Of a DNA stretch of 58,413 bases, positions 2,543 through 39,368 are shown in pieces. Origin of the DNA: Synechococcales cyanobacterium S06 (lineage in GTDB: Bacteria; Cyanobacteriota; Cyanobacteriia; Cyanobacteriales; JAABRE01); NCBI GenBank assembly GCA_011391125.1, contig JAABRE010000026.1:1-58413 (forward strand), read 5' to 3'. Every line of letters begins with the position of its first letter. Position 1 is the stretch's first letter. The translations under genes and the position numbers were made by a program. The notes below the pieces were generated by a model, which was not told the origin of the DNA, did no database searches, and saw only the letters and a program-made list of their open reading frames with translations.

Positions 2543-5500
2543 CTAAATTTTACCCTCAATGACGGCCTCTGATTCATGGATCAGATTTCTTAACTTATCC
2601 CTAGTTTCGGGAGTTAAATCAGTCCATAAACCTCTCTGATTGGCTTCTAGTAACCTTTCGGACATATCTCGGAGTGCCCAAGGATTTTTTTGCTGAATAA
2701 ATCGCTGTACCTTTTCATCAAATAAGTAGGCCTCTGCTACTCCTTGATACATATAATCAGAGACACAATTGGCGGTCGCATCGTAGGCGAATAAATAATC
2801 GACAGTGGCTGCCATTTCAAATGCCCCTTTGTATCCGTGTCTCATCACTCCTTCTATCCATTTGGGGTTAACGACTCGGGAGCGATAAACTTTGGCGATT
2901 TCTTCCTGCAAAAGTTTAACTTTGGGATTGGCGGGAATGGAGTTATCGCCAAAGTAGGTTTGGGGATTTTGGCCGGTAATGGCTCGCACCGCAACGGTTA
3001 AACCGCCCTGAAATTGGTAATAGTCATCAGAGTCTAATAAATCATGTTCCCGATTATCTTGGTTTTGCAGGACGATTTGCAGGTCTTGTAAGCGGTTTTT
3101 AAAGGATTCTGGGGCGGAAATACCCTCTTTTTTGCCATTATAGGCATAACTGCTCCAGTTTATGTAGGCGCGCGCCAAATCTTGGTCACAGGTCCAGTTT
3201 TGCGCTTCAATTAAACCTTGTAATCCCGCTCCGTAAGCGCCAGGTTTTGAACCAAAAATCCTATATTGCGCTCGCTCCTGAGCTTGTTGCAAGTCTAATC
3301 CTTGTTGTTGCCAAAATGCGGTTTCTGTTTGGACTTGATTCGCAAGGGGATTATCTTCCGGGGATTCGTCTAATTGGGAAACAGAGGCGATCGCCGAATG
3401 GACGAAATCAATCAAATTAGGGAAACCATCGCGAAAAAAGCCAGAAATCCTCAAAGTAACATCAACCCTTGGTCTTCCCAGCACCGACAAAGGCAAGATT
3501 TCAAAGTCAATTACCCGTCGGGAACTGCCATCCCAAACCGGTTGAACTCCTAACAAAGCTAAAACTTGAGCAATATCATCCCCTCCGGTCCTCATGGTGG
3601 AAGTTCCCCAGACAGAAATCGCCAAATTGCGGGGATACTCGCCGTTTTCTTGGGTATATCTCTCGATTACGACTTCGGCCGCTGTTCTACCCACCAACCA
3701 AGCTGTTTCCGTGGGTATGGCTCGAATATCAACAGAGTAAAAATTGCGTCCCGTGGGTAGAACATCTGGCCTACCTCGACTGGGAGCTCCTGATGGTCCA
3801 GAGGGGACATATTTTCCGTCTAATCCTGTTAGTAAATTGGTTATTTCTTGGGTAGTTTGCTTTAATTTTGGGATTAATATTTTGCTAATCCAATTAATTT
3901 CTATTTCCAGATCAGGATGGTTAATAATTTTATCCTCCCTTAGTCCCTCCTTTAATAAGGGGGCGGAGGAATCAAGAATTTCCTCGACGATTTCGGCCGC
4001 TTTTTCTTCTAATATTTCGATCGCATCTCCGATATTTCTACACTGAGAAAAATCGGTTACTCCTAACCTCTTTTCTCCCTCACCCCAACCCTCTCCCACA
4101 GGGTGAGGGAGTTGGAAAGGGGAAGTTTTTTCTGCTATTAATGGGTTAAAATCTAAGCCATAAAATGAGGCAATTGCGGTGGTTAAACCGACTCGATTTC
4201 GGTCAGGTTGACGAGCAATTGCTACGATTAAATCCCGTAATTGTCTATCTTGGGGTAATTGTCCAAATATGTGTAGGCCGTCTCTTATTTGTGCTTCTTT
4301 AATCTCGCATAAATAGCCATCAGCAACTGTTAAAAAATCCCGCAGATTTTCCTTAGTAATGGTGTCTATTCCTAAATCTTGATTTAACTGGGATTTTTGG
4401 ATTATATTGAGGAGGCGATCGCCAATTAATTTTAACCTAGTGGGGTCTAAACTTTGTGCTTCGTAATATTCATCAATCAAGCCTTCAATTGCCTGTAAAT
4501 TACCATATAATTCGGCTCTAGTCAATGGTGGAGTTAAATGGTCAATAATAGTAGCTTGCGATCGCCTTTTTGCTTGACTACCTTCTCCGGGATCATTAAC
4601 AATAAAGGGATAAAAATTAGGGAAAGGTCCAAGGGCAATTTCGGAGTAACAATGAGCAGATAAAGCGATACTTTTACCTGGTAACCATTCCATGTTTCCG
4701 TGTTTACCAAGGTGAAGAAAAGCATGGGTTTTAAAGTTATTTTTTAACCAGTAATAATAGGCTAAATAATTAGGAGTTGGTTCTAAATCGGGAGCATGAT
4801 AATTTAAACTGGGATCGAGTTCATATCCCCGTGGTGGTTGGATTCCGACGAATATATTCCCAAATTGAATACCGGAAATGGGGAATTTTTCAGGTAAAGG
4901 ATATTTGCCCCATCTATTGTCAATTTCTGTCTGTATTTTTTGAGGTAATTGCTGATAGTAATTTTCGTATTCTTGTAAAGATAAATAATGAGTTAAAATC
5001 GAATTATTTTGAAATTCTAAATCATTGGTAATCCCCGAGGTTAAAAGAGTAATTAATTCATCACCATTTGCGGGGATATTTTCCACAAAATAACCGTCAT
5101 TTTTTAGGGCATTTAATATGTTGATACAACTAGCAGGAGTATCTAAACCGACACCATTGGCTAACCGAGCATTTTTGTTAGGATAATTAGCTAAAATTAG
5201 GGCGATTTTGCGCTCATTTTTCGGGCAGTTTTTTAAGCTTAAATAATTAGCAGCTAAATCAGCAACAAAATTAATTCGATCCTGATTTGGTTGGTAAATA
5301 GTGACATCAGTTTGGAGGAAATTATCCCACTTTTCCACCGATTTAAAAGAAACTGCACGAGTAATAATTCTACCGTCAACTTCCGGTAAAGCAACATTCA
5401 TAGCTACATCTCGAGGAGTTAATCCCTGAGAACTTGATTGCCATTGTTCTTCTGTACTACCACTAAAAATTACTTGTAAAATAGGAAGATTAAGCTGTTG

Positions 5501-5752
5501 CCAAAAACTGGTTACTAAATCATCGCCAAGATTAGCTAAAGAAAAACTGGTAGTATTAAGAATAAGTTGAGAATTTGCTAACAAAGAGAATAATTCAAGT
5601 TGGATTTCTGTATCCTTTAAAGAAGAGACAAAAATGGGTAAAGGAGATAAATCACGCTTAATTAAAGCGTGACAAAGTGCATCAATTGGTTTAGTATTGC
5701 CGGCTAGATAATGAGCGCGGTAAAATAAAATAGCGACTTGATTTTTACCCAT
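2543..5752 (-). CDS. cobN: Cobaltochelatase CobN, C-terminal piece of a split gene
   Basis: Large subunit of the ATP-dependent cobalt chelatase (or a CobN-like chelatase) of corrin synthesis, here 1069 residues and lacking its normal N-terminal ~190 residues. It opens with VAILFYRAHYLAGNT, which is internal in intact CobN, and contains FLHLGKHGNMEWLPG and SVWGTSTMRTGGDD, family signatures around the active-site groove. The missing part is at 6226-6789 on the same strand; together the pieces total 1256 residues, the usual full length. An ArsR-family gene lies between them, ending 11 bases before this start. No good ribosome site precedes the ATG, so translation may depend on the upstream gene. 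Two interspersed repeats are read in frame near residues 550 and 600. Identity is sure; whether the split enzyme works is unknown. Confidence 0.9.
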   Translation of the reverse strand: MGKNQVAILFYRAHYLAGNTKPIDALCHALIKRDLSPLPIFVSSLKDTEIQLELFSLLANSQLILNTTSFSLANLGDDLVTSFWQQLNLPILQVIFSGSTEEQWQSSSQGLTPRDVAMNVALPEVDGRIITRAVSFKSVEKWDNFLQTDVTIYQPNQDRINFVADLAANYLSLKNCPKNERKIALILANYPNKNARLANGVGLDTPASCINILNALKNDGYFVENIPANGDELITLLTSGITNDLEFQNNSILTHYLSLQEYENYYQQLPQKIQTEIDNRWGKYPLPEKFPISGIQFGNIFVGIQPPRGYELDPSLNYHAPDLEPTPNYLAYYYWLKNNFKTHAFLHLGKHGNMEWLPGKSIALSAHCYSEIALGPFPNFYPFIVNDPGEGSQAKRRSQATIIDHLTPPLTRAELYGNLQAIEGLIDEYYEAQSLDPTRLKLIGDRLLNIIQKSQLNQDLGIDTITKENLRDFLTVADGYLCEIKEAQIRDGLHIFGQLPQDRQLRDLIVAIARQPDRNRVGLTTAIASFYGLDFNPLIAEKTSPFQLPHPVGEGWGEGEKRLGVTDFSQCRNIGDAIEILEEKAAEIVEEILDSSAPLLKEGLREDKIINHPDLEIEINWISKILIPKLKQTTQEITNLLTGLDGKYVPSGPSGAPSRGRPDVLPTGRNFYSVDIRAIPTETAWLVGRTAAEVVIERYTQENGEYPRNLAISVWGTSTMRTGGDDIAQVLALLGVQPVWDGSSRRVIDFEILPLSVLGRPRVDVTLRISGFFRDGFPNLIDFVHSAIASVSQLDESPEDNPLANQVQTETAFWQQQGLDLQQAQERAQYRIFGSKPGAYGAGLQGLIEAQNWTCDQDLARAYINWSSYAYNGKKEGISAPESFKNRLQDLQIVLQNQDNREHDLLDSDDYYQFQGGLTVAVRAITGQNPQTYFGDNSIPANPKVKLLQEEIAKVYRSRVVNPKWIEGVMRHGYKGAFEMAATVDYLFAYDATANCVSDYMYQGVAEAYLFDEKVQRFIQQKNPWALRDMSERLLEANQRGLWTDLTPETRDKLRNLIHESEAVIEGKI
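3940..3966. repeat. Interspersed CCCTCCTT..AAGGGGG repeat inside cobN
   Basis: A short inverted repeat read in frame on the minus strand as APLLKEGL within CobN. The same kind of repeat is normally intergenic in cyanobacteria. It lies in a loop between conserved blocks, so it probably adds a surface linker. Confidence 0.5.
4075..4111. repeat. CTCCCTCACCC hairpin repeat inside cobN
   Basis: A perfect 11-bp stem (CTCCCTCACCC at 4075-4085, GGGTGAGGGAG at 4101-4111) with a 15-base loop. It is translated in frame as LPHPVGEGWGEGEKR in CobN. Relatives of this repeat occur between genes at 17592-17632, 21625-21666, 21970-22003, 22045-22093 and 42950-42995, so this copy has invaded a coding sequence. 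Confidence 0.7.
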
Positions 5753-5763
5753 TTTTGTGAAAA

Positions 5764-6159
5764 TTAAAAGTAGTTTTGTAATGATTGGAGACTTTTAAAT
5801 TGTTCTTCTTGTTGCTGTAAATTAGTAGCTAAAGAATTACAAACTAAGTCACAAATTGTGAAAATTAAAGGATTAGAAATAGTATAATAAACCTGAACTC
5901 CTTGTTGGGTTCTTTCCACAATTCCCGATTGAGAAAGCATTTTTAAATGTTTAGAAACATTTGCTTGACCTAAACCTGTAATTTCAATAATTTCTGAGAC
6001 ATTTTTAGTTCCCGATTTAAGAGAACATAAAATCTGTAAACGACTGGTTTCAGAAAGTACCTTAAAAAATTCAGCAATCATACCTAATACAGCTGGGGGA
6101 AATTGAGAGAGATTGCAATCAGATAAATTCGTTATTGTTTCAGGAGATTTCACTAACAT
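5764..6159 (-). CDS. ArsR-family transcriptional regulator between the cobN pieces
   Basis: Winged-helix ArsR/SmtB-type repressor of 131 residues. The core (about 20-100) contains LSETSRLQILCSLKSG, the recognition-helix region GQANVSKHLKMLSQSG and the wing QGVQVYYTI. It lacks the ELCVCDL metal box and the His/Asp-rich alpha-5 site of zinc and cobalt sensors. It has Cys45 in alpha-2 and Cys103/Cys107 (ICDLVC) in alpha-5, a layout like the thiol-based sensors BigR/SqrR. It lies 66 bases after the N-terminal cobN piece and 11 bases before the C-terminal piece, on the same strand. It may regulate the split cobN unit, but the ligand is unknown. Confidence 0.85.
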   Translation of the reverse strand: MLVKSPETITNLSDCNLSQFPPAVLGMIAEFFKVLSETSRLQILCSLKSGTKNVSEIIEITGLGQANVSKHLKMLSQSGIVERTQQGVQVYYTISNPLIFTICDLVCNSLATNLQQQEEQFKSLQSLQNYF

Positions 6160-6225
6160 TTGTCAATTAATAAACAATTTTTCAGTTATATTAGCATCTT
6201 TTCATTAATTATTACTTATTAATTG

Positions 6226-6789
6226 TTAAGGATTAACGTTATAGTAATAAATTCCCACACGAGGAACAGGTTGAGGCAATTTTATTTTATAGTTAGTATT
6301 TAAACAAAAATTAGTTACAAATTGTAGCGAATTGGCCAAATTTTCTGCTCCAGCCTCATTAAAATAACGCCAAACTTGATTAACAGCAGCAAGTGGCACC
6401 GTCGAATGAGAAATTAAATCTGGGTCAGGGCGATCATCTCCGGGTAAAATAAACAAAAATGCCCCGGTTTCGGCGACAGTTTCCCTGACAACCTCCAAAC
6501 CATAACTCCAGTAGGATATGCCTCCAAGTAGCCTTAAAATGATGATTTTAGCGTGATTTAACACGTTTTCAGCATAGGTGTCAATGCTTAACTGCTGTTG
6601 TAATTGTAATAAATTTACAACGCAAAAATCGGGAAAGTCGGGGGGTAAAGAGGATAAAGTGGCTGCTAAAGTTTGGATGTCAGTATCTGCAGAGGTAAGT
6701 ATGACAAGGGTTGCAGGGTTTTGTTCCACAAAAATAACGCCTTCGGTATCTGGAGTCCAGCCTCCAGGAGTTGCAGCAATTCGGTGCAT
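6226..6789 (-). CDS. cobN: Cobaltochelatase CobN, N-terminal piece of a split gene
   Basis: 187 residues matching the N-terminal domain of cyanobacterial CobN: it opens MHRIAATPGGW and contains EGVIFVEQ, ILRLLGG(I)SYWSYGLE and LPGDDRPDPDL. The match runs to PQPVPRVGIYYY, just where the linker to FYRAHYLAGNT should follow; then comes NVNP and a stop. The remainder of the enzyme is at 2543-5752, after the ArsR gene. Because the break falls in a linker between domains, the two polypeptides could assemble. The terminal codons (GGAATT..ACTATAA) faintly resemble the right end of the local MITE, which may be chance. It diverges from cikA, with 94 bases between the starts. Confidence 0.85.
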   Translation of the reverse strand: MHRIAATPGGWTPDTEGVIFVEQNPATLVILTSADTDIQTLAATLSSLPPDFPDFCVVNLLQLQQQLSIDTYAENVLNHAKIIILRLLGGISYWSYGLEVVRETVAETGAFLFILPGDDRPDPDLISHSTVPLAAVNQVWRYFNEAGAENLANSLQFVTNFCLNTNYKIKLPQPVPRVGIYYYNVNP

Positions 6790-6883: not shown

Positions 6884-9160
6884 ATGTTGACTTATCACTC
6901 TTCCATTTTAAATCGAACCCTCTCTAGGGCTATTTTTGATCAACTCTGTTTTTTGTGGCAAAAAATGGCCGATTTGGCTGGTGAAACAGCTTTATTAATT
7001 ACAGAAGAAACCATTGAAGAAAATCAGATTCACGGACTATATTTGAGTAATAATTTTACAGATGAAAGATTTTGTCTGTTAATTTCTGGGCAAATTCAAG
7101 CTCTTTTATTTGCTAAAAAAATTCCAGATCAGGAAAATTATCAAGTAAATTTAACTTTTAAAAATGAAATTATTAAAGATTTTTTAATTGAATTAATTAA
7201 ACCTTTAGAAAAATATCCTTATTTGCGAGATTTACTTGTTTCAATCCGCGAAATAAATGTTAATTTTGAGCCGCAAATTTATGAGCAGTTTACCATGAAT
7301 TTATTGGAAATTCTGGTACAAAATAATATTGCTCCGGAATCTGAACTAAATGGCTACCCCTGTTTTTTTGACTATCAACCTCTGGATGTGATGTTACATA
7401 ATAGTCTTGAACAAGAGCGCATTCTTAAGCAAATGACGCTACAAATTAGTCAAAATCAAGACCTATTAATTATCATTCAAATGACAATTGAAGAAGTGAG
7501 AAGTTTGTTAAAATTAGATCGCTTAGTTATTTATCAGTTAAATGTCAAATTAACGAATGAAACTGGTCAAACTGAATCCATAGATTTAGTCACTTATGAA
7601 ACAAAAAGTTCAGAAAATATTAATTCGATTCTTCATAGTCGAGATGAAACTTGTTTTTCAAATAAGGCTGATTCTCGTTTAAAATATTGTCAAGGTTTTA
7701 GTTTAATTATTGATGATATAGCTAATTCTAATCTCGAACCTTGTTTAAAATTATTAATGAAAAGATTAGAAGTAAAAGCTAAATTAGTTACACCCATTAT
7801 TGTTCAAGATAAATTGTGGGGTTTTATTATTGCTCATCAGTGTCATAATATTAGAAATTGGCAACCAAATGAAATTAAATTTATCAATCATATTGCCCAA
7901 TATTTGGCCATCGCAATTTATCAATCCGAATCTTCTTATCAATTACAACAACAGCAAAAAATCTTAGAACAACAAATAGAAAGAAGGGCCACCGAATTAC
8001 GGGACGCACTTTTAGCGGCAGAAATAGCCAATCAATCAAAAACTGAATTTATCGGTAATATGAGTCACGAATTAAGAACACCTTTAACCTGTGTAATTGG
8101 TTTATCTAGTACACTATTAAGGTGGTCATTTAGTGAAAAAAATAATTTACTTCCCATCGAAAAACAACGTCAATACTTACAAAATATTCAGGATAGTGGT
8201 CAAAAATTATTAGGTTTAATTAATGATATCTTAGATTTTTCGCAAGTGGAAGCGGGTAAATCAATTTTAGATATTAAAGAGTTTTCTTTAAAAAATCTTT
8301 GTTTTTTTCTGATTAAAATTCTTAAAGAAGAGGCCGAAGTTAATCAAATTAAATTAAAACTGGAATTAATTCTCGAAGAAAATCAAGATTTATTTTGTGG
8401 AGATACGGAAAGAATTAAACAAATTTTACTCAATTTACTCAGTAATGCGATTAAATTTACTCCAGCAAATGGTAGGGTAATTTTACGAGTTTGGCGGGAA
8501 AATAATCGCGTACTTTTTCAAATAGAAGACACGGGAATTGGTATTTCTCAAAATAAAATACCCCTCCTATTTGAAAAGTTCCAACAATTAGAATCCTCCC
8601 GACAAAAAATCTACGGAGGAGCAGGTTTAGGTTTAGCTTTAACTAAACAATTAATTGAATTACATCAAGGTACCATTGAGGTAGATTCAACCCTTGATCA
8701 AGGTTCGATTTTTACCGTTTCTTTACCGAATTTATCTAATTATTTATCCAAAAATAAACATAAATCTGATTATCAAGAATTACCCCCAGGACAAACTATT
8801 GTTGTCATCACTCAGAATGATGAAATAGCCACGCTGATTTGTGAAATGTTTACCGTTGCTAAATATCAAATAGTTTGGTTAATTGATAACTCTATTCCTT
8901 TTAAACAAATCAAAATAATTAACCCTTGTTTAATTATTATTGATCCTAATTTTACCGACATTAATCAGGCTGATTTTCTTCAAGAATTAACTCTTTTACA
9001 AACTATAAAAAATTTTAAAATTCTCATTTTAACCGACCAATTAACTTCAGAAATTTGGACTATTTATAGTGATGCTGGAGTCGATGATTATTTAAGTTTG
9101 CCCTTAGAACCTCAAACTTTATTACAAAAAGTTAACTCTTTGTTAATCAGTAATAACTAA
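6884..9160 (+). CDS. cikA: Circadian input histidine kinase CikA
   Basis: Hybrid-type kinase of 758 residues with the CikA architecture and length: an N-terminal domain (1-185), a phytochrome-like GAF domain (190-345), a histidine kinase core with His395 in NMSHELRTPL, the N box LLNLLSNAIKFTP and G boxes DTGIGI and GAGLGL, then a degenerate receiver (about 645-755). In that receiver the first acidic pair is changed (ITQNDE) and the conserved Lys is lost (LSLPLEP), as in pseudo-receivers that bind the fold-switched KaiB. Cys287 sits at the bilin-attachment position of the GAF domain (LEPCLKLL), but the usual next His is Leu. CikA resets the clock and dephosphorylates RpaA in well-studied species. 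The kai cluster lies 30 kb away. Confidence 0.87.
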   Translation: MLTYHSSILNRTLSRAIFDQLCFLWQKMADLAGETALLITEETIEENQIHGLYLSNNFTDERFCLLISGQIQALLFAKKIPDQENYQVNLTFKNEIIKDFLIELIKPLEKYPYLRDLLVSIREINVNFEPQIYEQFTMNLLEILVQNNIAPESELNGYPCFFDYQPLDVMLHNSLEQERILKQMTLQISQNQDLLIIIQMTIEEVRSLLKLDRLVIYQLNVKLTNETGQTESIDLVTYETKSSENINSILHSRDETCFSNKADSRLKYCQGFSLIIDDIANSNLEPCLKLLMKRLEVKAKLVTPIIVQDKLWGFIIAHQCHNIRNWQPNEIKFINHIAQYLAIAIYQSESSYQLQQQQKILEQQIERRATELRDALLAAEIANQSKTEFIGNMSHELRTPLTCVIGLSSTLLRWSFSEKNNLLPIEKQRQYLQNIQDSGQKLLGLINDILDFSQVEAGKSILDIKEFSLKNLCFFLIKILKEEAEVNQIKLKLELILEENQDLFCGDTERIKQILLNLLSNAIKFTPANGRVILRVWRENNRVLFQIEDTGIGISQNKIPLLFEKFQQLESSRQKIYGGAGLGLALTKQLIELHQGTIEVDSTLDQGSIFTVSLPNLSNYLSKNKHKSDYQELPPGQTIVVITQNDEIATLICEMFTVAKYQIVWLIDNSIPFKQIKIINPCLIIIDPNFTDINQADFLQELTLLQTIKNFKILILTDQLTSEIWTIYSDAGVDDYLSLPLEPQTLLQKVNSLLISNN

Positions 9161-10811: not shown

Positions 10812-11022
10812 AGAAATCAGGTAATAGGTAAGAGGTAATAGGTAATAGGTAAGAGGGAATAGGTAATAGGTAAGAGGTAATAGGTAAGAGGTAATAGGTA
10901 ATAGGTAATAGGTAATAGAGAAGAGGTAATAGGTAATAGGTAATAGGTAAGAGGTAATAGGTAATAGAGAAGAGGTAATAGGTAATAGGCAATAGGCAAT
11001 AGGCAATAGGGAAGAGGGAAGA
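10812..11022. repeat. Heptamer/octamer tandem tract (GGTAATA/GGTAAGA)
   Basis: About 210 bases of GGTAATA, GGTAAGA and GAGGTAATA units, drifting to GGCAATA and GGGAAGA at the right end. On the minus strand it is the leader of the polyphosphate gene, and all three frames stay open, giving false proteins rich in YLLPIT. Copy-number slippage is likely in such a tract. Confidence 0.9.
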
Positions 11023-20531: not shown

Positions 20532-20694
20532 GTAGGGTGTGTTAGCGACAGCGTAACGCACCAACTCTTAAATAGGGTGGTGCGTTACATTAGCATTAAC
20601 GCACCCTACTTGCTTGGTGCGTTACATTATGATTAACGCACCCTACTTGCTTGGTGCGTTACATTAGCATTAACGCACCCTACTTGCGTTATAT
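20532..20694. repeat. Triplicated GGTGCGTTA/TAACGCACC hairpin cluster
   Basis: A GGTGTGTTAGCG...CGTAACGCACC hairpin followed by three tandem units of TGGTGCGTTACATTA(G/T)(C/G)ATTAACGCACCCTACTTGC. Each unit is itself an inverted repeat. It lies between the converging PEP-CTERM and AEC transporter genes. A related single copy is at 25606-25671. Confidence 0.85.
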
Positions 20695-36973: not shown

Positions 36974-37101
36974 TATAGTAATTCCCAATAAAAATTAAAC
37001 AAAAGTTTTTAGTTTGTTGTTGGACTTTAGTCCTAAGAAGCGCTAAAGCGCAACTACGAACCTATTTTTTAACTGTTCTAATCTTAATTGAAATTACTAT
37101 A
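36974..37101 (-). mobile_element. MITE copy C (128 bp), inverted
   Basis: TATAGTAATTCC..GAAATTACTATA ends and the same internal palindromes as copies A and B, in the opposite orientation, with a few substitutions. It ends six bases past the original stop of the broken HicA-like gene. Confidence 0.85.
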
Positions 37102-37106
37102 GTTAT

Positions 37107-37472
37107 TTATTCATAAAAATAAGGCCATAATTCTGAAGGAGAAATATATTTAGTTGTCTGTCTAAAAATTGCCCGACAAGTACCAGTATCTAATTGTTTA
37201 TGATTAGGAATAGTTAAACTTTCTTTTCCTGTAAGTAGGTAGTCATAAATAAAAGCTCAATGAATAAAGGTTCGTAGTTGCGCTTTAGCGCTCCTAGACT
37301 TAATTACGAAGTCAAAAGATACTTTTGCATTTTTACGTTTAATTGTAACCACCGACTTAATACCATTACGTCGCAATTTAAGATGACTTCCTTTCTGACT
37401 ATAAACCTGAAAGCCAAAATTAGCTAAAATATTAAGAACTTGTATTCCCGATAATTTTTTAAGTTTAGGCAT
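37107..37472 (-). pseudogene. HicA-like (YcfA) toxin gene, interrupted
   Basis: It starts MPKLKKLSGIQVLNILANFGF..SQKGSHLKLRRN, the HicA N-terminal half with its catalytic-type GSHxK. Then about 45 foreign codons follow, including a MITE-interior fragment (GCGCTTTAGCGC at 37280-37291), and a TGA at 37257-37259. In the same frame after the stop, the true C terminus resumes: KESLTIPNHKQLDTGTCRAI..ISPSELWPYFYE, ending at 37107. The gene is thus split by an insertion and the toxin is probably dead. It overlaps the antitoxin gene by 8 bases. Confidence 0.75.
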
Positions 37473-37791: not shown

Positions 37792-38865
37792 TTAACGAAC
37801 TGAACCTACAGGTTGAGCAGGAAGGGGTTTCATTAAGTACAAGTTCACGAATTGCCAACCGTTAGATAAGAAAACGGGTAATTTTTGCAATCCTTTGATG
37901 AATCCCGGTGCCTTTGACGCATCGATCGCCCGTAATTTTTCGTTATTGCTGACGCAAGTTTCTAGGCGATCATAAAATTCAGGTTTATTGACATCTAAAA
38001 CGATGGGGAAAACTCTTCCGGCCGTTTCATTAGTCTTCTCAATGACCAATTTATCGTATTCTCTCGCGTCTAAACCGAGAGTGGCATAAAAATCAGCACG
38101 TTGACAGTCGTTCAGATACATGGTTGCGAAAACTGACAACAAGAAAAAACGGGACCAAAGACGTGCTTTCCAGTCATTTAAAAACTGGGGTTGAGCTTGG
38201 AGAATTGCGTCGAAGAAATCACCATGACGGTTTTCGTCTTGACACCAGTTTTCAAAGAAGCAGAAAATGGGATAAATTCTGTCTTCGGGGTGCTGCTCTA
38301 AATGGCGATAAATGGTAATATAGCGCCAATAGCCGATTTTTTCCGATAAATAGGTAGCGTAGAAGATGAATTTAGGCTTAAAGAAGGTATAAGTATGATT
38401 CTTGGTCAGAAAACCTAAATCTAAAGACAGGTTAAAATCTGACAAAGCCTTGTTTAAGAAACCAGCATGACGAGCTTCATCTCTGGACATGAGGTTGAAA
38501 CATTCTGCCAATAAAGGACTGGTGTCTTTTAAGCGTCTTCCTAATTCTTTATACAATAAGAAACCAGAAAATTCTGCCGTGCAGGATCTTTCCAGAAATT
38601 CGACGAATAATCCGCGGGTTTTCTCGTCAAGATTGTCCCAAGACTGGTTAAATTTGTCGTCTCTGACAAAGTGATGACGATTGTAGTCAATTCTAAACTC
38701 CTCTAAAATCGCCCTTAATTCCTCTTCGTTAACGGAAATGTCCATTTTAGCCATTTCGTCGAAATCGGTGGTATAAAAGCGAGGGGTGAGAATTGTCTCT
38801 GCTGCTGGAGCTTTCACTCCGGGGCGTAATTCTTCAAATTCTGGTTTTGATAGGGTACTTACCAT
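37792..38865 (-). CDS. acsF: Mg-protoporphyrin IX monomethyl ester oxidative cyclase
   Basis: 357 residues, the aerobic diiron cyclase that builds the fifth ring of chlorophyll. Diiron ligands are in [28 protein letters not shown] and [12 protein letters not shown] (E-x-x-H pairs). The start [18 protein letters not shown] is highly conserved. It is oxygen-dependent and works in the membrane with a Ycf54-like partner, which is not seen here. Length and motifs are normal. Cyanobacteria often have two copies with different oxygen responses; which one this is cannot be told. Confidence 0.95.
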
Positions 38866-39368
38866 ATTTTTTAGGAAAATTGCGTTTAAAACAGGTTATT
38901 TTTGATTGTAACTATGGATTGTCCTTTAGTGTAGCAAAATTTTCCCTTTTCTTGACATTTATTTTTATTTAACAAAATTGTAAATTTTTGTTAATTTATT
39001 TATTTATGGGGACTTAAATGTGATGGGAATATTTTAAACTAAAAAATCTACACAAGAAAATCAAGGTCATTTCAGTTATCAGTTATCAGTTATCAGTTAT
39101 CAGTTATAGTAATTCCAAATAAAAATTAAACAATAAGTACCTAAGCAAAATTAATTGTGAAAAATAAAGACGGTTTGTTGTTGCGCTTTAGCGCTATCTA
39201 TAGCGCTAAAGCGCAACAACGAACCTATTTTTTACTATTCTAATCTTAATTGGAATTACTATAACAGTAGTGGTTAACGGCCGTTAACCCCTATAAACAC
39301 GACCTTTACTAAACGATGTCTTTTTATGCCCAGTCTAACAATACACAAACAATTTGGCCTTCACCGAT
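38866..39368. other. Repeat-filled gap between acsF and the PCP_red gene
   Basis: 503 bases. It holds an AT-rich acsF leader, a TTATCAG heptamer tract at 39073-39106, MITE copy D, and TAACGGCCGTTAACC (39274-39288), a short palindrome also seen near 45428. No gene is visible. Confidence 0.7.
39105..39263 (-). mobile_element. MITE copy D (159 bp variant)
   Basis: Ends TATAGTAATTCC and GGAATTACTATA match the other copies. The centre differs: it has a long near-perfect palindrome, TTGTTGCGCTTTAGCGCT and AGCGCTAAAGCGCAACAA. It seems to have inserted at the edge of the heptamer tract. Confidence 0.8.

Follow-up and report, generated by a model that had tools for sequence, protein, structure and literature searches.

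A cyanobacterial cobN gene cut at the head-body linker, with an ArsR-family regulator gene between its pieces, and recurrence of the cut in two other genera

Among described systems, the closest include CobN, the large subunit of aerobic cobaltochelatase (TIGR02257; PDB 9uk9, 7c6o), and a head-deleted form of its paralogue ChlH. Taking HmuS as the reference, passages of PMC12583661 give a head rotation of 50 degrees for CobN and of at least 100 degrees for ChlH, and the HmuS head is mobile and becomes disordered when heme-free. A laboratory construct of Thermosynechococcus ChlH without its head still folds and binds porphyrin and is extremely impaired, as reported in PMC4255732. Cyanobacteria are said in parts of PMC9227772 to lack CobS and CobT, with ChlI and ChlD proposed as substitute partner subunits. 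Here we describe a cobN locus of Synechococcales cyanobacterium S06, on a contig of 58,413 nucleotides (JAABRE010000026.1; the window), in which CobN is encoded by two open reading frames (ORFs) with an ArsR-family regulator gene between them:

6226-6789, minus strand: cobN-N, the CobN head domain (domain I), 187 aa; TIGR02257 positions 1-180, PDB 9uk9 CobN residues 1-156
6160-6225, minus strand: head-to-arsR spacer, 66 bp, containing the candidate internal promoter TGCTAATATA at 6187-6196
5764-6159, minus strand: arsR, an ArsR/SmtB-family regulator of 131 aa with Cys15, Cys45, Cys103 and Cys107; from profile matches, PDB matches and alignment
2543-5752, minus strand: cobN-C, the CobN neck plus body (domains II-VI), 1069 aa; TIGR02257 positions 193-1226
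6884-9160, plus strand: hybrid histidine kinase (GAF/HisKA/receiver), the divergent upstream neighbour, outside the split; from ORF and profile matches

The head, arsR and body ORFs all lie on the minus strand and each has an ATG and a stop codon; the head-to-arsR and arsR-to-body gaps are 66 and 11 bp. The ORFs and hidden Markov model matches confirmed a preliminary description that had placed the CobN pieces at 6226-6789 and 2543-5752 with a complete ArsR gene between them on the same strand. The body matched TIGR02257 (cobalto_cobN) with 1487.8 bits over profile positions 193-1226 of 1226, above the curated cut-off of 822 bits, and the head with 151.7 bits over positions 1-180, leaving about 12 profile positions, the linker, unmatched between them. 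An H-x-G-x-H-G stretch was read by eye in the body. The locus thus resembles described CobN in its full, ordered domain set and in a body scoring above the curated cut-off, and differs from it by its two genes, the lost linker and the arsR between them; the domains lie on two ORFs instead of the single polypeptide of the TIGR02257 family. The head-deleted ChlH construct shares with the window the separation of the head at a narrow linker (PMC4255732, in part), but that construct has lost its head altogether, with activity extremely impaired, whereas the window retains a head gene.

Together the pieces make 187 + 1069 = 1256 aa, within the 1221-1442 aa of intact relatives in a first set, as expected from the earlier claim that they add up to the usual CobN length. 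Conserved columns, defined as at least 97 % identical across 83 full-length intact proteins (77 distinct sequences, drawn from 107 loci of which the remainder had no complete clean ORF), numbered 380. The window retained 373 of them (98.2 %), 36/37 in the head and 337/343 in the body, so the alignment to intact CobN also bears out the claim that neither piece lacks a conserved block; the leave-one-out range for the intact proteins was 95.9-100 % (median 99.5 %). No internal stop or frameshift was found in head or body, and the locus does not look like decay as judged from these alignments. A search for PF02514 proteins revealed two others in the genome, of 1338 aa (on contig C6) and 1217 aa (G000:C158:12193-15297, ChlH-type), which we read as ChlH and ChlH2, the 1217-aa protein probably being ChlH2; two ChlH isoforms have been described in some cyanobacteria (PMC10156173, in part). 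With these two read in this way, no CobN other than the split one was found, and in an assembly listed as 99.98 % complete the same search gave no second, intact cobN.

The firmest new result is that the split recurs. When the same split was sought in related genomes, it was found in five more, in genera g7 and g37, which are probably Synechocystis and Geminocystis, respectively; these five are the splits found outside the window among the matches listed for the order and in families f13 and f7. A CobN head was present in 362 of the 388 genomes searched in the order. In family f13, 12 of 15 genomes had the head, which was a free gene of 185 aa in G040 and G063, the two genomes of g37; among the other ten, nine had continuous frames of 1235-1381 aa and G223 a frame of 584 aa running to the contig end. 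In family f7 the head was found in 48 of 50 genomes and was a free gene of 184-191 aa in G035, G077 and G289, three of the five g7 genomes (G006 and G058 are joined); of the remaining f7 genomes with a head, G181 has an in-frame stop in it and 42 carry it within a frame of at least 581 aa. Each of the five split genomes has one body ORF, of 1083-1112 aa. The g7 and g37 genes resemble the window in being cut at the same head-body linker with both pieces intact, and differ in that head and body are 0.6-1.9 Mb apart on one contig (G035, G040, G063, G289) or on different contigs (G077), that no ArsR gene is adjacent, and that no start stem of comparable stability is present. The stretches of 10-17 kb read around the pieces in g7 and g37 showed no adjacent ArsR-like gene. 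Since these pieces persist far apart or on different contigs without an adjacent ArsR gene, the regulator is unnecessary for the split to persist.

Ratios of nonsynonymous to synonymous substitution rates (dN/dS) by the NG86 method were 0.21, 0.14 and 0.13 for the head and 0.10, 0.09 and 0.09 for the body in the three g7 pairs, and 0.07 (head) and 0.17 (body) in g37. The YN00 method gave 0.37, 0.17 and 0.13 (head) and 0.15, 0.12 and 0.13 (body) in g7, and 0.07 and 0.15 in g37. These values indicate that the split pieces in both genera are under purifying selection. In a quick tree (LG+G4, branch support by the Shimodaira-Hasegawa-like approximate likelihood ratio test only) of 77 rows, 6 split and 71 joined, which took every third named locus and some genomes twice, the split/joined labels require three changes of state, and the starred branches force three; the named loci are the best 80 of a longer list from one scan. 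Three fissions are simpler than one fission followed by re-fusion of distant genes, the tree alone being unable to tell gain from loss. No published split CobN or cobN gene fission was found in titles, abstract openings and passages of PMC9227772, a weak test of absence.

Several other candidates were not counted as splits. By coordinates, G172, G195, G218, G230 and G328 reach a contig end (the sequence was read for G172 and G195); in G310 (locus L198) and G372 the linker contains runs of N; and G029, a 61 %-complete genome, has what looks like a frameshift in the first strand of the body. In G241 (L151, L115; L115 1789-2511 and 857-2029) head and body lie in different, overlapping frames that diverge in the linker, either through an error of sequencing or perhaps as one more split, the fourth; the contig has N runs further on, and the case was not counted. 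The cobN of G001 (L121 1750-5825) is broken at another place, into overlapping ORFs of 604 and 768 aa beside tandem repeats.

In g7 the heads keep the divergent kinase neighbour. The free body (L110 3566-10200; L254 6966-13500; L256 6688-13406) precedes a gene for an ethylene-receptor-like kinase, in which PF25487 was shown for two of the three g7 genomes, and one for a response regulator; in G035 the body is immediately preceded by a DUF433/DUF5615 gene pair. In Synechocystis sp. PCC 6803 slr1211 is placed by the literature close to etr1 (slr1212), and therefore the split CobN may also occur in this model strain. The slr1211 gene carries the annotation cobN and may be the body piece.

The junction had been said to fall in an interdomain linker, and the cut does lie between the CobN head and body. 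In the 74 named loci joined in frame the linker was estimated at 8-169 residues (median 18); of the remaining six, four are cut by a contig end, L198 is split with an N run in the linker and L151 has different overlapping frames. In the first set of relatives, 29 loci that include two split-gene bodies, the interval from ...PRVGIY to VAILFYRAH... was short or filled with repeats where both ends matched. Residues 1-531 of L027, an intact relative, were modelled with AlphaFold from 19 sequences; the model had a mean predicted local distance difference test score (pLDDT) of 71 and a predicted template modelling score of 0.66. Its head was ordered to about residue 182 and its neck from about residue 231, while linker residues 185-227 had pLDDT below 50, as did four shorter stretches downstream and the first 8 residues. 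The best PDB match of this model was Mycobacterium tuberculosis CobN (Z 19.7, root mean square deviation 7.7 over 355), followed by ChlH and HmuS (Z 12.0-12.8, deviation 5.9-17.0); head-disordered HmuS (Z 10.6) was level with unrelated folds (Z 10.5 or less). In intact relatives the head-body linker is variable, often repetitive and predicted to be disordered.

The gene between the pieces matched NF033788 (HTH_metalloreg) with 78.7 bits (cut-off 55) and PF01022 with 48.7 bits (cut-off 22). Matches to its protein at E 1e-8 or better, more distant paralogues included, occurred in 171 of 195 genomes of the order, and the 29 best arsR loci encode proteins 56-70 % identical to that of the window. 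Cys45, Cys103 and Cys107 were present in all 30 aligned sequences (the window and the 29 best) and Cys15 in 24. PDB matches included 6o8k, an ArsR-family entry that we take to be SqrR, 3pqj, a 'biofilm growth-associated repressor' entry and presumably BigR, and the metal sensors SmtB, CzrA, NmtR and CmtR-like entries. A classical metal sensor was rejected, since the ELCVCD motif is absent when the sequence is read by eye; a metal site of another type may be formed by the conserved cysteines. With the Cys-based sensors SqrR (6o8k), BigR (3pqj) and RexT (PMC8960804, in part) the protein shares the ArsR fold and the absence of ELCVCD. Persulfide sensors of the SqrR type have two conserved Cys that form the sensing bridge; in the window protein Cys45 aligned with a Cys of the 6o8k sequence, and Cys103 and Cys107 lie near the C-terminal helix. 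It differs from BigR in scoring 44.1 bits with the sulfite-sensing repressor profile NF040642, against an equivalog cut-off of 155, and from RexT, as described in part of PMC8960804, in lacking the vicinal Cys-Cys pair (Cys45-Ser46 in the window; Cys at position 46 in 12 of the 30 sequences).

The arsR orthologues stand in varied, unrelated gene contexts. A sulfide- or persulfide-like neighbour was seen in 8 of the 29 loci, from only four genera, five of the loci being of genus g9. Ten chosen neighbours were searched with Pfam, giving two metallo-beta-lactamase, two Pyr_redox_2, one rhodanese and one TauE protein and four with no clear sulfur link; the other neighbours were read by eye. From these sequence features a thiol/redox or sulfur sensor is the likelier guess. 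No arsR orthologue was found near cobN elsewhere, in the 80 named loci with flanks up to 6 kb and in 118 further locus rows, mostly with 1.5 kb flanks and some from the same genome, and among these loci only the window has a regulator between the CobN pieces.

Reading on from the preceding stop, the first possible body start is the ATG at 5752, which lies 11 nt past the arsR stop codon. Repeat elements at and near this junction are:

5758-5744, minus strand: 5' arm of a perfect 15-nt stem, ACAAAAATGGGTAAA, containing the body ATG (5752-5750); from the inverted-repeat scan and fold
5642-5628, minus strand: 3' arm of the stem, the exact complement, 101 nt downstream in the body coding region; from the repeat scan and fold
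5755-5768, minus strand: 14-nt exact direct repeat of 5856-5869 (within arsR), at the arsR/body junction; from the repeat scan

The predicted fold of 5615-5800 had an energy of -39.8 kcal/mol (z -7.0). Among the start regions of the 42 window ORFs taken as genes, that of the body ranked first with z -5.9, the next being -2.5, and the body start codon was paired with probability 1.00 (median over the 42 genes, 0.51). An inverted repeat as long and as close occurred in 1 of 1000 local shuffles, and a comparable 14-nt direct repeat in 7 of 1000; inverted and direct repeats of both kinds are also present elsewhere in the window. Since the 3' arm codes for a segment conserved in relatives, it is probably the 5' arm of the stem that is new. 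An ArsR-CobN body fusion by frameshifting was considered, the body frame being open for 14 codons before the ATG (1083 instead of 1069 aa) with a strong stem after it, and was rejected, no slippery site into the body frame being found when the end of arsR was read by eye. A mobile element bringing arsR was likewise rejected: 5600-6420 holds only short repeats (the 14-nt direct, the 15-nt inverted and weaker ones). No transposase-like ORF was listed between head and body. An Rfam scan gave a single match (E 0.75, far below the gathering score) elsewhere in the stretch and none at the junction.

In the spacer between head and arsR, TGCTAATATA at 6187-6196, 37 bp before the arsR start, is one mismatch from TGGTAATATA, and an equally good match occurred in 1.25 % of 2000 spacer shuffles. 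With at most one mismatch TGGTAATATA was found within 120 bp upstream of 14 of 29 arsR orthologues (0.36 expected), suggesting that arsR may have brought its own promoter element. A general sigma-70 scan listed no promoter in 6160-6225, the combined sigma-70 and terminator scan performing no better than chance, and the fold of the spacer was unremarkable (z -0.5). Elsewhere in the window TGCTAATGTAAC, which differs at one position from the TGCTAATATAAC found in the arsR spacer, has two minus-strand copies, at 20584-20595 and 20658-20669.

We propose that cobN underwent a natural fission at the head-body linker and that the subunit would be made as two polypeptides, the head (domain I) and the neck plus body (domains II-VI), assembling in trans. 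An arsR with its own promoter element would have come to sit exactly in the linker; the head would be transcribed from the old cobN promoter and the body expressed with arsR from the putative internal one. Ribosomes ending an upstream gene can open a structured downstream start, and here those finishing arsR would open the 15-bp stem that buries the body start, so that the signal sensed by ArsR, most likely thiol-reactive or sulfur, might shift the amount of body relative to head. The free head is expected to be needed, because head-less ChlH is extremely impaired (PMC4255732, in part). CobN probably works as two polypeptides, and the suggestion in the preliminary description that the chelatase is coupled to a sensor is plausible; of all the results, this link to the regulator is at once the most interesting and the least certain. 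We lean, if only slightly, towards the explanation as a whole, comprising fission, assembly in trans, the arsR promoter and translational coupling. We put forward tentatively, as rather unlikely, the reading in which a separate head is combined with a stem-locked body start that only ribosomes reaching the end of the sensor gene would open, tying active chelatase to synthesis of a thiol/sulfur sensor, with the start codon perhaps derived from an inverted template switch during the insertion.

Several results weigh against the proposal. The promoter motif TGGTAATATA was picked after inspection of the sequences. Paired start codons are common, as the median of 0.51 in the window and values of 0.41-0.95 in the other split genomes illustrate, and stability alone stands out; the 8 candidate starts of the other five split genomes (z -2.0 to 1.7) included no stem this stable, and none comparable was seen at the same place in 84 joined relatives (lowest z -3.1). 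The stem may be a scar of rearrangement or template switching, the 14-nt direct and 15-nt inverted repeats filling the junction. The retention of 98.2 % of conserved columns sits low in the intact range, only 7 of the 83 intact proteins being lower. The genomes searched include no member of the same family and gave no close relative of the window, the best named head being 71 % identical, and therefore selection after the split is not measurable at the window and the stem is not checkable by covariation. In favour of the proposal, two CbiC/CobH-type genes and MetH, which were what was searched of the cobamide pathway, are encoded in the genome, and therefore cobamide is probably used and made. 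According to parts of PMC7133116, however, CobG, F, K, S and T are missing from Synechocystis, and the aerobic route is doubted there; its possible disuse in cyanobacteria of this kind makes the physiological role of CobN itself uncertain.

Part of this evidence would suit a functional two-piece CobN in which arsR is a bystander, inserted neutrally with a promoter of its own that also transcribes the body, the stem being a scar and no regulation following from sensing. As much as 169 aa of extra sequence is accommodated in the linker, the 10-17 kb stretches read in g7 and g37 show no ArsR-like gene next to head or body, the junction is built from direct and inverted copies of nearby sequence, and arsR orthologues occupy many unrelated contexts. 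As a matter of argument, on the other hand, a stable stem burying a start codon should be purged by selection unless it is opened, and the same strand and 11-nt spacing suit an expressed unit; we regard the bystander as a serious if doubtful alternative. An insertion that killed cobN, leaving the pieces as young pseudogenes, would account for the split itself, the slightly reduced conservation and the locked start, and the aerobic pathway may be dispensable (PMC7133116, in part). Neither piece, however, has a stop or frameshift, and 373 of the 380 conserved columns are kept; the same split is under purifying selection in two other genera; and decay looks different, as in G181, where the head region has an in-frame stop. 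The inactivated cobN raised in the preliminary description is thus disfavoured, and we consider it improbable.

An assembly or binning chimera that placed arsR inside an intact cobN would be conceivable in a draft genome (4.81 Mb in 168 contigs, listed completeness 99.98 %). The whole split locus is nevertheless internal to a single contig of 58 kb; a stop codon of its own closes the head and a separate start opens the body, the two being in different frames; profile positions corresponding to the linker are absent; listed contamination is 0.01 %; and the second-best match to the arsR protein within the same genome, among the matches listed, is only 46 % identical. The window head also retains the divergent histidine kinase, a relative of which lies upstream of cobN in 32 of the 80 named loci. 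A chimera is accordingly very improbable.

The occurrence of the cut in three separate lineages suggests that the head of a class I chelatase can be supplied in trans. The natural splits offer material for the open question of the role of the mobile head in CobN and ChlH, and where such a gene occurs in a genetically tractable genus the question could be addressed in vivo. The arsR case would exemplify a regulator wired to an enzyme through insertion into a tolerant linker, and the start-codon lock gives a clear prediction.

The decaying-looking cobN mentioned above, in the 2.8 Mb genome G181, carries its in-frame TGA stop in the head region at G181:C1:1934666-1935076. In the window, a ferredoxin-like 2Fe-2S protein is encoded at 2008-2433, 3' of the body gene on the same strand, with NCBIfam matches below the cut-off; it was rejected as a conserved cobN partner, a relative being near cobN in only 1 of the 80 named loci. 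Other repeats of the window include tandem direct repeats based on AGGTAATAGGTAAG at 10819-10952, and inverted repeats at 37039-37292 and 39103-39265, several of the GCGCTAAAGCGCAAC type, which flank a gene at 37792-38865.

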